DNA of 64,000 bases from Olivibacter jilunii (GTDB lineage Bacteria; Bacteroidota; Bacteroidia; Sphingobacteriales; Sphingobacteriaceae): positions 682,001 to 746,000 of the forward strand of contig NZ_LR027849.1 of NCBI RefSeq assembly GCF_900607235.1, written 5' to 3'. The notes below the pieces were generated by a model. The model worked only from the letters and a program-made list of their open reading frames with translations, was not told the origin of the DNA and ran no database searches. The position numbers and the translations under genes are program-made. This document shows positions 8,726 through 25,554 of the stretch, in pieces; the first letter of the stretch is position 1, and each line of letters begins with the position of its first letter.

Positions 8726-9034
8726 AAGTGTAATTAATATGTTTTAAACTTTTGTTCTTAATTATCGAGGGATATAACTTCTTTATAAAGGCCCGAAATA
8801 ATTTTCCCAAAGGTATACAGCTGAGAAAAGCTGAGCAATTCCGGTTTATGGGTGTTTTTTTCTACTGGTTTTCCGGTAGCGATCCACATCAGCAGTCTTT
8901 CACATTGAAGCGGAAATTTTTGAAAGGCGAGTATAAGGTCAACGAAATGTAATTCAATCCACTTATTATCAATGTTTCGTCATTTGCATCTCTATCAATA
9001 GGGATATCGGGAAAAGTCGATATATATTTGCTGC
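8726..9034. other. Intergenic region between divergent genes
   Basis: 309 nt between the lipoprotein (minus) and arsR-type gene (plus). A 66-codon open frame on the plus strand has no coding character. The right end carries the arsR promoter; no other element recognised. Confidence 0.4.
9023..9030 (+). promoter_or_regulatory. -7 promoter element of the ArsR-OYE unit
   Basis: TATATTTG, an exact TAnnTTTG, ends 4 nt before the ATG at 9035. Transcription would begin at or next to the start codon, implying a leaderless mRNA. No clear TTG -33 element is seen at the expected distance. Confidence 0.6.
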
Positions 9035-12678: not shown

Positions 12679-12771
12679 GGAGAGGGTATGACCTCCATTA
12701 AATGAAAATAAAATTGTAAATGCGATTTTATTTTTGTTAACTTTATATAACCAATTAGAAAGGAGGTTATT

Positions 12772-13218
12772 ATGAACCTAATCCACAGAATCGAACATTG
12801 GGGTGATGCACATCACCCTCGCTGGATGGATGCTGTTAGAATTGTATTGGGTGTTGTTATTTTTGCTAAGGGTGTAAGCTTTATAGCTGATACGGATTCG
12901 GTAGCGCGTTTACTGGAAAATACCCATTTCCAATTATCCATTTGGTCGGCTGTGCATTATATTGCTTTTGCGCATTTGGTTGGCGGGATTTTTATCGCGC
13001 TGGGATTAGTAACGCGAGTGGCCATTGCCTTTCAGCTGCCAATTTTATTCGGTGCAGTGTTTTTTGTAAACATTACCAACGGTTTTAGTTTCTTAAACTC
13101 AGAATTCTGGTTCTCGCTAGTGGTTTTGCTATTATTAATCGTTTTCTTCATTGTCGGTTCAGGACGGTATTCGCTTGATCATGAAATGAGAAGGCCAGGT
13201 AATAAAAGATGGTTTTAG
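12772..13218 (+). CDS. DoxX family membrane protein
   Basis: 148 residues with four predicted membrane helices (about 20-40, 58-80, 84-104, 114-132). It fits the DoxX/DoxD-like family, whose members are often linked to redox or thiol stress. GAGG-type ribosome site AAAGGAGG precedes the ATG, unusually strong for this phylum. It follows the cysteine operon by about 90 nt, but a functional link is only suggested by position. An intrinsic terminator-like stem lies about 110 nt after the stop. Confidence 0.8.
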   Translation: MNLIHRIEHWGDAHHPRWMDAVRIVLGVVIFAKGVSFIADTDSVARLLENTHFQLSIWSAVHYIAFAHLVGGIFIALGLVTRVAIAFQLPILFGAVFFVNITNGFSFLNSEFWFSLVVLLLLIVFFIVGSGRYSLDHEMRRPGNKRWF

Positions 13219-13224
13219 AAAATT

Positions 13225-13238
13225 ACCTGAAAACAGGT
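13225..13238. promoter_or_regulatory. Palindromic activator-like box ACCTGAAAACAGGT
   Basis: ACCTG-AAAA-CAGGT, with extra pairing outside (AATT..GTATT). It ends 24 nt before the TAGCTTTG element at 13263, the same distance as the related box at 24449-24462. The centre would lie near -43 from the transcription start, the position of a class II activator. Confidence 0.6.
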
Positions 13239-13262
13239 ATTTCGAGACCGAACAGCTTCTTT

Positions 13263-13353
13263 TAGCTTTGCTGTATAAACAAAGCTGTCTACATGTATTA
13301 TATCAAATTTCATAACATTGATTAAGCTACCTTCTTAAGGAGGTAGTTTTTTT
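13263..13353 (+). ncRNA. Candidate small RNA with own promoter and terminator
   Basis: TAGCTTTG (13263-13270) acts as -7 element; the transcript would start near 13276 and end at the terminator at 13327-13353, giving about 75-80 nt. An alternating inverted repeat AGCTTTG/CAAAGCT follows the promoter. A tiny frame (MYYIKFHNID) lies inside, probably chance. It could also be a leader for the macroglobulin gene at 13453, with the stem as an attenuator. Confidence 0.45.
13327..13353 (+). terminator. Intrinsic terminator
   Basis: CTACCT and AGGTAG arms extended by CTTAAG in the centre, followed by seven T. It ends the candidate small RNA and could also stop read-through from doxX. Confidence 0.75.
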
Positions 13354-13452
13354 ATTGTCTGTATTTAAATGGCTATCAAAAACCTTATATGTATCTTCCG
13401 GAACTGTTACTAATATCCGATCAGACGCATTATGGTTTTCACAATTTGCTCT

Positions 13453-21703: not shown

Positions 21704-22327
21704 TTACAGCAAACGATAATCAGTTGCTAATTTTATGACGGAAATAATATTGTTTACTTCAAATTTTTCCATCAATTTTTTTCTGTGACTCTCTACGGTA
21801 TGTGGACTGATAAAAAGTTGATCAGCAACTTGCTGCGTTGTCAGACCTTTACCGATAAGCTGTAAGACTTCCTTCTCCCGTCGGGTTATCAGTGGAACCG
21901 TTATGTGTTGATCGGCTTCGGCATTGGCCATTGTCGTACGCGTAGCAGAGCATAAATACTTTTGTCCCCGCGCAACTGTTCGTATCGCTTCCAGAATTTC
22001 GTCGCCAGGGGCATTCTTGATAACATAACCTAAGGCACCATTCTGCAGCATGCTCCGAATTACTGCATGTTCGTTGTGTAAACTTAATGCTATTATTTTT
22101 AAACCGGGATGGTTTCGCTTTAAATCACTGCATAAGTTAATTCCGTTCATATCAGGTAGGTTGATGTCTAAAAGAATGACGTCTACGTCCATTCCTTTCA
22201 ATGCATCTATGGCCTCTTTTCCTAATTTGTACGACTCAATCAGGGAAATATCTTCATGTGTGAAGAACAAATTCTTTAAACCGTCAATTACGATGGGATG
22301 ATCGTCTATTATAATAACCTTTATCAT
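21704..22327 (-). CDS. NarL/LuxR-family response regulator
   Basis: 207 residues. Receiver domain with DDHP (about 8-11), phosphoacceptor Asp in LLDINLPDMNG (about 56), and Lys in YVIKN (about 106). C-terminal LuxR-type HTH with RREKEVLQLIGKGLTTQQVA and SPHTVESHRKKL. Its start overlaps the kinase stop by 4 nt, so they are coupled. Targets unknown; LuxR-type domains bind inverted half-sites, and an ACCTG-type box lies in the region upstream of its kinase gene. Confidence 0.93.
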   Translation of the reverse strand: MIKVIIIDDHPIVIDGLKNLFFTHEDISLIESYKLGKEAIDALKGMDVDVILLDINLPDMNGINLCSDLKRNHPGLKIIALSLHNEHAVIRSMLQNGALGYVIKNAPGDEILEAIRTVARGQKYLCSATRTTMANAEADQHITVPLITRREKEVLQLIGKGLTTQQVADQLFISPHTVESHRKKLMEKFEVNNIISVIKLATDYRLL

Positions 22328-24306
22328 GATTTAATATTACATTCTATAGTGAAAGTGGTGCCATTGCCGATTTGCGAGTGAACATCGAGCTCGCCGTGAA
22401 TATATTCGATGCGGGAAAGTATATTGGTAAGGCCGTTGCCCGCTCTGTTTTTAACCAATAGTGTTTTATCAAAGCCGATCCCATTATCTTCTACAGTTAA
22501 CGTTACCTTGTCTTCGCTTTTCAAGAGTTGGACAAAAATGGTACTGGCCTTTGCATGACGAATGGCATTCGTTACCAATTCTTGCATGATTCGATATAAG
22601 ATCAATTCCTTTTCCTGTGTTAGTTCATTATTATAGTGAAATATCTGACAGATGAGTTGTATTCCCTTGTTTCGCATACGTGAGCAATACGACTTAATGG
22701 CCTCGCCAAGACCGTATTTTAAGAGCGTCTCAGGCATCAAGTTCTGCGAGATGAATCGTAGCTCATCTACGGCATAGTCAATTTTTTTTAAAGGGTCGGT
22801 AAGCTTGGTATATTTATTTTCCTTTTTTAAAGCACTGGACAGTTCGATTTTTAATGCTGATAACAAGCCTCCCAGACCATCGTGAAGATCACGTGCGATT
22901 CGTGTTCGCTCGGACTCTTGCCCGTTTAACATCGCTGATAACAAGGATATCTGGTTGTGCTGACTGATCTTATCCATCTCCAGCTGATGTAGCTTTTTAT
23001 GTTGTATTAACTGCTTCTTATGATGACGATTGGATTGAAAATACAAGACAGCTAAGGTCAATAATAAAAGAGATGTGGCCGTCAATAAGCCGGTATAAAG
23101 GCGATTTTTTTGCAAGGCAAAAGATTTAACTTCGTTTTCATGTTGTAATTGTAAAATTTGTTTTTGCTTATTTGCGTTTTGGAATTTCTCCTCAATTTCA
23201 TTCAGGTTCGCCTTTTTTTCCGATTCATTTAGGCTGTCGGCGAGGTGCGCATATAAGGATTTAGCTTCGTATGCATGCTTATAATCACCAATTTTTTCAT
23301 AGATGTCAGCTAAATCATCCAATGCACCTAACTGGCTGCCTTTTAAATTTAGGCGAACGTTCTCCTGTGCATAGGCTAAAGCTCGTTGATTATCACCCAT
23401 GGCCTGCTTCAGCTTTACCAAAGTTCCTAAGATATTGCTCTGGGCAAGCGCATCGGTCTCTTTTTTTGCGATGGAAAGCCCCTTTAGTAAGTCTTTCTCC
23501 GCCGGTTGATATTGCTTCTTTTCGAAGGCGTACAGTCCGCGATAGTTGTAATACCAGCTCCACACTTCCTGACGATCATTGGCCTTTAATAAATAATTTT
23601 TGGCTTCGTCCAGGTACGGTTTCATCTCGTCAATTCGATCGCTTCTATAATAACAAGCGGCTAAGTTTACGTAGGAATAAGCGAATCGCGCATATTGTTT
23701 GCGTTCAACTATTTTTACGGCTACGCTTTTCTTAAAATACTGTATCGCTTTCTCATATTGGCTGATATTCATAAACCAGACTCCGATATTATTATATAGA
23801 TTTCCCAAGGTGACCTGATCACCTACTTTGTAAGCCAGTGGCACGAGAGAAAGCGCTTCGTTGAGGGCTTTATCCGGTTCCTTACTGATTTTTAACGTAA
23901 GGTGATTCTGCTTAATAAAGAGCAGTAGCTTCTGATTTCGGACATTGGAATACTTCAGCAATAAATGCTCGGCCTTTTGATAATAGCTTTCAGCGCTATC
24001 TTGCAAATAATAAATTTGAAAGAATCTTGCCAACGATGCATACGCGTTGGCAATGTAGTAGTCTTCTCCGCTTGATAAGGCAAGACTTAACCCTTTTTTT
24101 AGGGCTTGAAAACCACCTGAACTATCGGACGAGGCTAAATGACTGCCAATACCAACATATAAACGTGCTTTTAAAGTATCGGAATGAGCATTTTTGAGTT
24201 CTCTTTTTAAGCTGTCAATTAATGGGGATTGCTGTTTACCGCGCAAGGGCAAAACAATCGTCATAATCAACAAGCTAAAAAGCGTATATCTAACCGTGGA
24301 CCTCAT
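22324..24306 (-). CDS. TPR-containing sensor histidine kinase (HisKA_3 type)
   Basis: 660 residues. N-terminal signal/anchor, tetratricopeptide repeats over about residues 60-380 in the periplasm, a short coiled coil, one membrane helix near 400-420, then HisKA_3 with RIARDLHDGLGG (phospho-His near 475) and HATPase_c (NAIRHA, EDNGIGFD, GNGLTNI). It phosphorylates the overlapping downstream regulator. TPR-sensor kinases of this kind are common in Bacteroidota; the stimulus is not known. Divergent from the candidate small RNA at 24.5 kb. Confidence 0.9.
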   Translation of the reverse strand: MRSTVRYTLFSLLIMTIVLPLRGKQQSPLIDSLKRELKNAHSDTLKARLYVGIGSHLASSDSSGGFQALKKGLSLALSSGEDYYIANAYASLARFFQIYYLQDSAESYYQKAEHLLLKYSNVRNQKLLLFIKQNHLTLKISKEPDKALNEALSLVPLAYKVGDQVTLGNLYNNIGVWFMNISQYEKAIQYFKKSVAVKIVERKQYARFAYSYVNLAACYYRSDRIDEMKPYLDEAKNYLLKANDRQEVWSWYYNYRGLYAFEKKQYQPAEKDLLKGLSIAKKETDALAQSNILGTLVKLKQAMGDNQRALAYAQENVRLNLKGSQLGALDDLADIYEKIGDYKHAYEAKSLYAHLADSLNESEKKANLNEIEEKFQNANKQKQILQLQHENEVKSFALQKNRLYTGLLTATSLLLLTLAVLYFQSNRHHKKQLIQHKKLHQLEMDKISQHNQISLLSAMLNGQESERTRIARDLHDGLGGLLSALKIELSSALKKENKYTKLTDPLKKIDYAVDELRFISQNLMPETLLKYGLGEAIKSYCSRMRNKGIQLICQIFHYNNELTQEKELILYRIMQELVTNAIRHAKASTIFVQLLKSEDKVTLTVEDNGIGFDKTLLVKNRAGNGLTNILSRIEYIHGELDVHSQIGNGTTFTIECNIKS

Positions 24307-24448
24307 ATTTTTGGCAAGTTAGTTTTTTTGACGAAGTGGAACAAAGCAAATAGTAAAACCCCGATTTTCAGGGAGCTTATAAAAATACATGATTTCTGCT
24401 AGTTTTTTTAGTCTGTGACATGGGCTCATTTGTACGAATGAGGAAAAT

Positions 24449-24462
24449 ACCTGAAAACAACT
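24449..24462. promoter_or_regulatory. Activator-like box, degenerate copy (ACCTGAAAACAACT)
   Basis: Matches the perfect box at 13225-13238 except in the right arm (CAACT for CAGGT), with outer AAATA/TATTT also pairing. It ends exactly 24 nt before TATCTTTG at 24487. Lies in the upstream region of the TPR kinase gene. Confidence 0.5.
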
Positions 24463-24486
24463 ATTTTATGTATGCATAATAAATTA

Positions 24487-24562
24487 TATCTTTGCAAGGT
24501 TGAATCGAGATTAGATTAAACACACATGAAAAACCAGGCAAGTGGCTTCACTTGCCTTTTTT
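24487..24562 (+). ncRNA. Candidate small RNA with own promoter and terminator
   Basis: TATCTTTG (24487-24494) followed by about 40 nt and a strong terminator at 24536-24562, so the RNA would be about 60 nt. A frame MKNQASGF... runs through the terminator stem and is open for 24 codons to 24600; it may be chance or a leader peptide. It is about 130 nt ahead of the gene at 24694, which has its own promoter, favouring an independent RNA over a leader. Confidence 0.5.
24536..24562 (+). terminator. Intrinsic terminator
   Basis: Perfect 9-bp stem (AGGCAAGTG / CACTTGCCT) with a GCTT tetraloop and six T. Strong, plus-strand directed; end of the candidate small RNA. Confidence 0.85.
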
Positions 24563-24641
24563 GTAGTCTGCACATTTGCTTCGAAGACACTCGTTTGTGA
24601 AATCCCGATTTTCAGCTATTTTGCTACGCTCGCTAAAACCT

Positions 24642-24674
24642 TACTTTTGTGCAAGTGACAACATCCGTTGTCAC
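24642..24674 (+). promoter_or_regulatory. Promoter with 5'-end hairpin upstream of the 24694 gene
   Basis: TACTTTTG (24642-24649) fits TAnnTTTG. Directly after the expected start site is a perfect 8-bp hairpin GTGACAAC-ATCC-GTTGTCAC (24655-24674) and then ATTCTTTT. The hairpin would cap the mRNA 5' end or act as a weak attenuator. Confidence 0.5.
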
Positions 24675-24693
24675 ATTCTTTTAAGTGCAAATA

Positions 24694-25554
24694 ATGAGAA
24701 GTAAATTAACGATCTTGCTGACGCTAACACTGGGAATGGCTTACGGACAAAGCCCCTTTATCGGTAGTTACAATGGATCACAAAGAGAGGCTGCCTTAGA
24801 GCTATACATCTTGCCGCAACATCATTTTGTTTTTGCTATGAGCTATGGTGCAATAGATCGAACAATTGTTGGAAAATGGGAGCAGAAAGGCGAAAAGATT
24901 TTCTTCCAAGAAACAAAGAGCGCCGATCGTGATGCGTTTATAGTCTATGAAGGAATTGATAAAGAACTTTTAGCGGAAAGTGAATTTGTCTTCAAAAATT
25001 TTAGCCAAAATACCGGCACAGCATTTCGGATACTTCCTGAGTTTCATCCCGATAGTATGAAGCTAATACATCTAAGAGATGAAAATACATTTAGTATGAC
25101 CAATAGGCTAAGTGTTACACCCAAAGCGCATTCTTCGTTCTTCCTGAGCGCCCCCAACAATAGTGTGGAAAATGACGTGTATGAATTTAAGTCGGCAACC
25201 ACTTCAAATACCCTGTATTTGTATTATAATCACGACACGAATTACGATACCTTTCAAATGGAGGCCTATCTAAAAGGGGATAGTCTTTACATGAACGACG
25301 GTGCGGGGGAAAGATTCTTTGCTGTGAAAGGTACGCTAAATTCCGACTATGAAGCATTGTTATCCGATGCTACAGAAAATCAGCGCATTCCGCTGCAACT
25401 TGAGGTAGAAGGACTTAATGGCAAAAGAATAATCCTTCAACGTTTAAGGCCCGTAAAACAGTTTAAGTGTTTACTCCATCTAGATGAAAATTCAGCCTAT
25501 TTTTCCGATCACGAGAACGGAGCAGCTCCTACATCGCCTCCGATATTACACTAA
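24694..25554 (+). CDS. Exported protein of unknown function
   Basis: 286 residues from ATG 24694 (a GTG three codons upstream is possible). A type I signal peptide ends near AYGQ, common in this phylum. The mature protein has no recognised catalytic motif; sequences such as GKWEQKGEKIFFQE and YEFKSATTSNTLYLYYNHD suggest a beta-rich fold. It has its own promoter and is followed by a small membrane protein after 92 nt. Function unknown. Confidence 0.6.
   Translation: MRSKLTILLTLTLGMAYGQSPFIGSYNGSQREAALELYILPQHHFVFAMSYGAIDRTIVGKWEQKGEKIFFQETKSADRDAFIVYEGIDKELLAESEFVFKNFSQNTGTAFRILPEFHPDSMKLIHLRDENTFSMTNRLSVTPKAHSSFFLSAPNNSVENDVYEFKSATTSNTLYLYYNHDTNYDTFQMEAYLKGDSLYMNDGAGERFFAVKGTLNSDYEALLSDATENQRIPLQLEVEGLNGKRIILQRLRPVKQFKCLLHLDENSAYFSDHENGAAPTSPPILH

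Follow-up and report, generated by a model that had tools for sequence, protein, structure and literature searches.

The question raised by this locus is whether a short unit made of a degenerate box, a promoter and a terminator, lying next to the genes of a two-component system, encodes a small RNA, and if so, what switches that RNA on and what it acts upon. The window, that is, the whole stretch of 64,000 nucleotides that was analysed, corresponds to G000:C2:682001-746000 of a 6.7 Mb genome. It was compared within a genus sample of five genomes (G000 to G004) and with larger sets from the family, made up of 121 genomes for a covariance model, 399 for a 16-mer and 101 for a stricter box pattern. 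Judged by the neighbouring proteins, G003 is the closest relative (92-94% vs 80-87%).

The two-component operon lies on the minus strand and encodes a TPR sensor histidine kinase (22324-24306; Pfam HisKA_3, HATPase_c and TPR) and a response regulator (21704-22327; Response_reg and GerE). A receiver and a GerE (LuxR-type) HTH domain in the regulator, together with a HisKA_3 kinase encoded in the same operon, identify it as a NarL/FixJ-type system. Such TPR-kinase/NarL-type pairs are numerous in the genus: the kinase query matched 10 times in this genome and 4-10 times per relative, indicating many paralogous kinase/regulator pairs. Kinase orthologues were found among the other genus genomes only in G004 (70%) and G002 (63%), where the regulator is 86% and 77% identical, respectively, and six kinase peptide patterns searched against named genome contigs retrieved only two distant relatives, at 26-31%. 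In G004, there is also a locus (L019:10209-14949) with two tandem TPR kinases before a single regulator gene, the first of them about 40% identical to the window kinase. An open-access literature search returned no defined operator for pairs of this type in the genus, and we know of none. The present locus is a compact case, with three conserved candidate sites around one operon.

The first-pass annotation had described a second copy of a box-promoter-terminator unit here, and direct reading bears out its layout. The box, ACCTGAAAACAACT (24449-24462), is followed after a gap of 24 nt by the -7 element TATCTTTG (24487-24494, plus strand) and then by an RNA of about 65 nt, which ends, as described, at a 9-bp stem (24536-24544 with 24549-24557) and six T (24557-24562). 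The unit is indeed divergent from the kinase/regulator operon, both ORFs of which are on the minus strand. The -7 consensus has a T at -12 and a G at -5, according to the part of PMC6847099 consulted, which places the inferred start near 24499, the small RNA at 24499-24562 on the plus strand, and the centre of the box near -43.5. Extended by one base on either side, the box becomes a 16-bp NarL-like 7-2-7 site, TACCTGA-AA-ACAACTA (24448-24463, plus strand). A candidate -33 element, TTTT (24464-24467), lies 19 nt before the -7 element, a spacing taken from the TTTG/TAnnTTTG consensus in the available part of its source. Between the -33 and -7 positions is a second palindrome, TTATGTATGCATAA (24466-24479), a weak candidate for a second operator, whose half-sites are kept in G000, G004 and G003 (with a changed centre in G003) and lost in G002. 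The -7 element is also TATCTTTG in G004 and G003, and TAATTTTG in G002. In the RNA itself, a nearly invariant core, TTAAACACACATGAAAAACC (24516-24535 in the four-genome alignment), precedes the putative intrinsic terminator (24536-24562), and folding of 24499-24565 gives the 9-bp stem with a z of -3.2.

A BLAST search with 24400-24700 found the unit in three of the four other genus genomes (G004, 88%; G003, 84%; G002, 72%) and did not find it in G001. In the alignment, TTARACACACATGAAAAACC is nearly invariant and the hairpin stem is conserved, while the loop is variable and the flanks have diverged. A covariance model (R1) scored 83.5-87.9 bits in the four genus genomes and at best 39.3 in the other 117 of the 121 family genomes; six weaker loci that were inspected all lie at ORF 3' ends and are ordinary terminators. 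The 16-mer core ACACACATGAAAAACC occurs in 5 of 399 family genomes, four of which belong to the genus. The sole carrier outside it, G238, was rejected as a further copy, its 16-mer lying at an ORF start with the unit missing, as was a BLAST match in G005 that covers the spacer palindrome alone, before an unrelated gene. Rfam gave no match at gathering level in the window; below threshold, 24400-24680 matched two snoRNA models, both far short of their cut-offs. With a promoter and an intrinsic terminator of its own, recognised by sequence and conservation, 24499-24562 is very probably a real small RNA gene, which we infer to be transcribed.

A possible partner for this RNA, which had formed no part of the first-pass annotation and is new here, came from a search for the complement of its core. 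At up to two mismatches, the five genomes gave 45 matches vs 29 for the reversed pattern, four of the 45 being the gene itself. One match, CGTTTTTCATGTGTGA, recurs unchanged in G000, G004, G003 and G002; it is not among the matches listed for G001, which is also without the small RNA. It belongs to a nearly invariant noncoding element of 75 nt, present in the four genomes (G000:C3:276943-277017; L240:2044-2118), in which a linker at the 5' end is followed by a long hairpin. The neighbouring gene is glmS, identified by the TIGR01135 equivalog above cut-off in the two cases tested. In G000, G004 and G002, its stop is on the opposite strand, 90-116 nt from the element; in G003, the gene is inverted, and its start lies 342 nt downstream of the element on the same strand.

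The segment complementary to the element's 5' linker, 24 nt at 24511-24534 on the plus strand, would form a duplex with arms of 8 and 14 bp on either side of a 2x2 loop, and 22 of 22 positions form standard pairs in every one of the four genomes. The outermost pair, U-A elsewhere, has become A-U in G004, with both sides changed at two unlinked loci and with no other G004-only substitution in the element besides indels. This is the single double compensatory change seen; in G002, one A-U pair has become G-U. The compensatory evidence is suggestive only, as the pairing score was equalled by 165 of 500 column shuffles of an alignment that has only three distinct sequence rows. Duplex energy is uninformative for the element, because shuffled RNAs often reach similar values.

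The sequences of the two loci could also be alike for a different reason. Were the opposite strand of the element the one transcribed, as the 3' UTR of glmS in three genomes, there would be no pairing, and the two loci would share a motif in the same sense, for example a binding site or decoy. Read on its minus strand, the element shares 21 of 24 positions with the RNA, and glmS runs towards the element in the three genomes where its stop lies close by. Against this, the 8- and 14-bp arms deviate from identity only in ways that keep the pairs (U-G, G-U), the G004 change is present on both sides, and the plus strand of the element folds better in three of the four genomes, with a conserved AT-rich stretch on its 5' side. 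In G003, minus-strand read-through from glmS is excluded because the gene is inverted there. A shared sense motif is possible but less likely, and pairing between the RNA and the glmS-linked element is probably biologically real.

Other searches around this partner gave little. No terminator, T-run or full -7 element was found for the glmS-linked element, and Rfam at the glmS loci gave no relevant match beyond one chance miRNA. The element was not found in viral contigs (as an exact 26-mer) or in phages, and a 41-nt partial match to a plasmid was judged to be due to chance. At the start regions of glmS, strong pairing with the core of the RNA is not seen consistently. When duplexes between the core and the starts of genes in the syntenic regions were scored, no target ranked high in all four genomes. 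DoxX, first in G004 and G002, was rejected as a target since it falls outside the top ten in G000 and G003. The DoxX gene is preceded in the window (12760-12775) by AAGGAGG, a Shine-Dalgarno-like sequence that is unusual for the phylum. Upstream of glmS, all four genomes (L245, L246, L247, L248) have a palindrome, ACGCAATCGGTTGCGT (TTACGCAATCGGTTGCGT in G000, G002 and G003), which by eye resembles a LacI-type operator.

It had also been proposed that the regulator next door switches on the RNA. Two further sites bear on this proposal. Copy 1 of the box, TACCTGAAAACAGGTA, is a perfect inverted 7-2-7 palindrome (13224-13239, plus strand, with the 14-nt box at 13225-13238), and its counterparts are TACCTATTTTCAGGTA in G004 and TACCTGAATTCAGGTA in G002. 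The gap to the -7 element TAGCTTTG (13263-13270, plus strand) is 24 nt in all three genomes, and the half-sites are kept while the 4-nt centre varies between AAAA, TTTT and AATT. A second putative small RNA follows (13275-13355, plus strand), with a terminator hairpin at 13324-13349 and little sequence conservation between genomes, and behind it sit genes for an alpha-2-macroglobulin (A2M) and a PBP1C-type transglycosylase, assigned by Pfam. The -7 element of copy 1 carries a G at -10, which is said to be virtually absent in Flavobacterium (PMC6847099, in the part consulted). The other site, CCCTGAAAATCGGG (24360-24373, minus strand), is a putative autoregulatory palindrome before the kinase gene. 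With its counterparts CCCTGAAAATAGGG in G004 and CCCTGAAATCAGGG in G002, it lies 67-78 nt upstream of the kinase start in all three genomes that have the operon, each time followed by GTTTTA, and is about 38 nt, not 24, upstream of a weak -7 element.

By count alone, the box is unremarkable. Within the window, the box word has 9 matches at up to three mismatches, with a shuffle mean of 8.7; genome-wide, TACCTGAAAACAGGTA at up to two mismatches has 11, vs 7 for the reversed control pattern. The palindrome TTATGNNNNCATAA likewise occurs at chance frequency (5 in 1.65 Mb; 4 in C2, and 0-4 in five shuffles of C2). A pattern of the whole unit, with an exact box and TATCTTTG, gave no match, as expected since copy 1 has TAGCTTTG. 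The box unit nevertheless counts as above chance because the whole unit is conserved in three of the four other genus genomes and the 24-nt geometry is shared at copy 1 in three genomes. Compared with G002, the block at 24444-24467 is identical at 24 of 24 positions, the box letter for letter, and the 19-nt spacer that follows at 6 of 19 (Fisher p 7e-7). The block reads as a footprint in G002, the only relative divergent enough to reveal one; in G004, both block (22/24; extended site 14/16) and spacer (18/19) are conserved.

The proposal had come with a refuting outcome, loss of the box from near relatives in which the operon persists, and that outcome was not observed. Both other genomes that have the operon, G004 and G002, retain the box, and the kinase-side palindromes accompany it there. 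In G003, the stretch from DoxX to the ATP-grasp gene lacks A2M, PBP1C, regulator and kinase, the small RNA is retained, and the box has a 2-nt deletion and further changes (11/16 vs 82/96, p 0.14). This decay where the operon is missing is suggestive only and not significant alone. What weakens the proposal is that the copy 2 palindrome is imperfect, with a good left half-site and a degenerate right one (CAACT), that the kinase-side site stands at another spacing from its promoter, and that paralogues are many. The box may serve one of the paralogous NarL-type regulators, or a global factor, with the neighbouring operon a bystander to a real RNA. Recognition helices are identical in the three orthologous regulators and similar among the paralogues, similar boxes precede some of the paralogous kinases (L030, L139, L158, L123) as well as unrelated genes, including those for GG-leader peptides, and G003 has the RNA but not the operon. 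This reading is somewhat doubtful in view of the three conserved sites that cluster around the operon in all three genomes having it and of the damage to the box in G003.

It is less likely still that the RNA is constitutive and that the conserved upstream block is an extended -33 or UP-like part of the promoter rather than an activator site. The block does end at the -33 position and has AT-rich ends, and an imperfect palindrome at copy 2 would fit such a role. But copy 1 has retained both half-sites in three genomes while the centre changed, and G003 has retained the RNA despite the 2-nt deletion in the block. That the neighbouring regulator, rather than a paralogue, activates the small RNA is somewhat more likely than not; the link is supported but falls short of proof, and its genome-wide support is mixed.

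The gene that follows the unit differs in every genome. In the window it is an ORF of 289 aa and in G004 a gene of the small multidrug resistance family; in G002 it is an ORF of 113 aa, with 34% identity to the second gene downstream in the window, and in G003 an ATP-grasp gene in convergent orientation. The unit is therefore read as a free-standing small RNA. That it is instead the leader or attenuator of the next gene (ORF 24685, which follows on that strand), or a gene for a tiny peptide with a plausible start, ATG-AAA-AAC, at ATGAAAAACC, is highly improbable, since that next gene is not constant, being convergent in G003, and the frames after ATGAAAAACC diverge at once through a 1-nt insertion in G004 and an early stop in G002. 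From these comparisons, we conclude that this predicted small RNA gene stands alone and is restricted to the genus as far as searched.

Whether the box, the 24-nt gap and TAnnTTTG form a more general code was addressed with several patterns. YCCNGN4CNGGNATTKN20TANNTTTG at one mismatch had 10 matches vs 0 for its reverse in the five genus genomes, where an earlier, looser pattern had 17 vs 1, and a stricter related box had 9 vs 1 in 101 family genomes. Some matches lie inside ORFs, and others precede genes for secreted or GG-leader peptides. An unbiased profile of box-to--7 distances on contig C2 (1.25 Mb) had no clear peak at 24 (4 vs a mean of 1.7), and the slice of C1 that did have a 24-nt peak had been picked where matches were already known. 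Among kinase promoters, a box score of at least 8 was found in 8 of 51 vs 0 of 43 controls (p 0.006), two of the eight being orthologues of the window operon. The gaps there cluster at 22-24 nt, a profile that rests on four ORFs (L034, L123, L139, L158) with overlapping frames counted. Among 48 other kinase promoters, a general test found no significant excess of inverted repeats (7/48 vs 2/43, p 0.11), a strict motif filter on 24 kinases vs 68 controls gave nothing convincing, and in an unbiased motif enumeration on kinase promoters nothing survived 6232 tests. A family-wide operator code is a hypothesis.

Several individual sites of this form were observed along the way. Box-24-TAnnTTTG promoters precede GG-leader-like peptides at G002:C1:2428919 (L063) and G004:C10:468173 (L050), and at G000:C1:1353995-1354067 (L055), near an HlyD-type export gene, two opposed boxes are each 24 nt from a -7-like element. 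These three loci share a 5' UTR motif like GCCGAAAANCTTTAAT...GTAGGC. In another genus, G111:C2:407313 (L112) has ACCCGAAAACAGGT, 24 nt and TAACTTTG, followed by about 100 nt that appear to be free of ORFs and a hairpin; it lies between a glycosidase-like gene and miaA and may be another box-driven small RNA. In the window, a weak box at 24604-24649 (CCCGATTTTCAGCT, 24 nt, TACTTTTG) before ORF 24685 makes a third unit-like promoter, with none at the syntenic place in the relatives, and ACCCATAAACCGGA, 24 nt and TACCTTTG at 8853 on the minus strand are a further candidate.

In the best overall model, whose odds we put at about even, a small RNA under the control of a NarL-type two-component system pairs with a glmS-linked partner. 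It starts from what can be read in the DNA itself, namely the unit and the form of its promoter, its conservation and restriction to the genus, and the complementarity in four of four genomes. The TPR kinase and the NarL-type regulator (21704-24306) would sense a signal, and the phosphorylated regulator would bind the copy 2 site, its twin at 13224 and the site before its own operon. The twin would drive the second small RNA, before the alpha-2-macroglobulin/PBP1C pair, and copy 2 would act as a Bacteroidetes-type promoter (-7 TATCTTTG) with a NarL 7-2-7 activator site near -43.5. The single-stranded core of the RNA could then form 8 + 14 bp with the linker on the 5' side of the RNA-like element beside glmS, here supposed to be read from its plus strand and to function as an RNA, and thereby change the activity of that RNA or of glmS.

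GlmS catalyses the first step of cell-wall sugar synthesis and feeds the cell envelope. Since it does so, and since A2M and PBP1C genes lie behind copy 1, an envelope-related signal is a natural guess. A bolder and quite tentative extension is that the TPR-kinase/NarL system controls envelope building through the 22-bp pairing with a regulatory RNA on the glmS side, as an independent counterpart of the enteric QseEF-GlmY-GlmZ-glmS circuit, and that this class of regulator uses, across the family, TACC/GGTA-type boxes 24 nt upstream of TAnnTTTG as its operator code. If the pairing is real, two-component control of an RNA circuit connected to glmS would have arisen independently of enteric GlmY/GlmZ, which would be unexpected.

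Several known systems invite comparison. GacA is a NarL/FixJ-type regulator, and GGA motifs in single-stranded loops are the hallmark of the CsrA/RsmA sponges. In the GacS/GacA system, a palindromic upstream activating sequence, a potential GacA site, lies before several small RNA genes, as described in the portion of PMC2375449 consulted. The Pseudomonas GacS/GacA-RsmX/Y/Z system is thus alike in having a palindromic site upstream of small RNA genes, but the box is different, and the window RNA (24499-24562) is without a GGA motif. Enterobacteria, for their part, have the GlmY-GlmZ-glmS pathway. The GlmY gene there adjoins the QseEF (GlrKR) two-component genes and has regulator sites in its promoter (PMC8745638, in the part at hand). 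Both circuits, that of the window as proposed here, place a small RNA beside a two-component system and link it to glmS; however, QseF-type regulators and sigma-54 act in the enterobacterial one, whereas the regulator here is NarL-type, there is no Rfam match, and the RNA would have as its partner a distinct element next to glmS to which it is directly complementary. The wiring proposed for the window resembles the gut-bacterial circuit but is unrelated to it, and the unit belongs to neither the RsmX/Y/Z nor the GlmY/GlmZ family, as it has no GGA motifs and no Rfam match.

The NarL operators of E. coli are inverted heptamers 2 bp apart, exemplified by the engineered site TACCCCTAAAGGGGTA, and 7-2-7 sites lie at -40 to -49 in napF and -38 to -47 in yeaR, in the sections of PMC4549865 consulted. 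The candidate site in the window, its right heptamer degenerate at copy 2, fits this pattern, has its centre at a similar distance, near -43.5, and at copy 1 has TACC...GGTA ends, but differs in its inner bases (TGA/ACA vs CCT/AGG) and in its Bacteroidetes promoter. Within the Bacteroidetes, GibS of Bacteroides thetaiotaomicron is an intergenic small RNA of 145 nt with a conserved single-stranded 5' seed and a terminator; it is induced by N-acetylglucosamine, and the consulted part of the source names no two-component control (PMC7366714). The window RNA is likewise intergenic, with a conserved single-stranded segment and a terminator, and is unlike GibS in sequence, in the latter's length of 145 nt and in its induction by N-acetylglucosamine. 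The closest parallels are, for the switch, GacA with RsmY/Z and, for the way the genes are arranged, GlmY next to QseEF.
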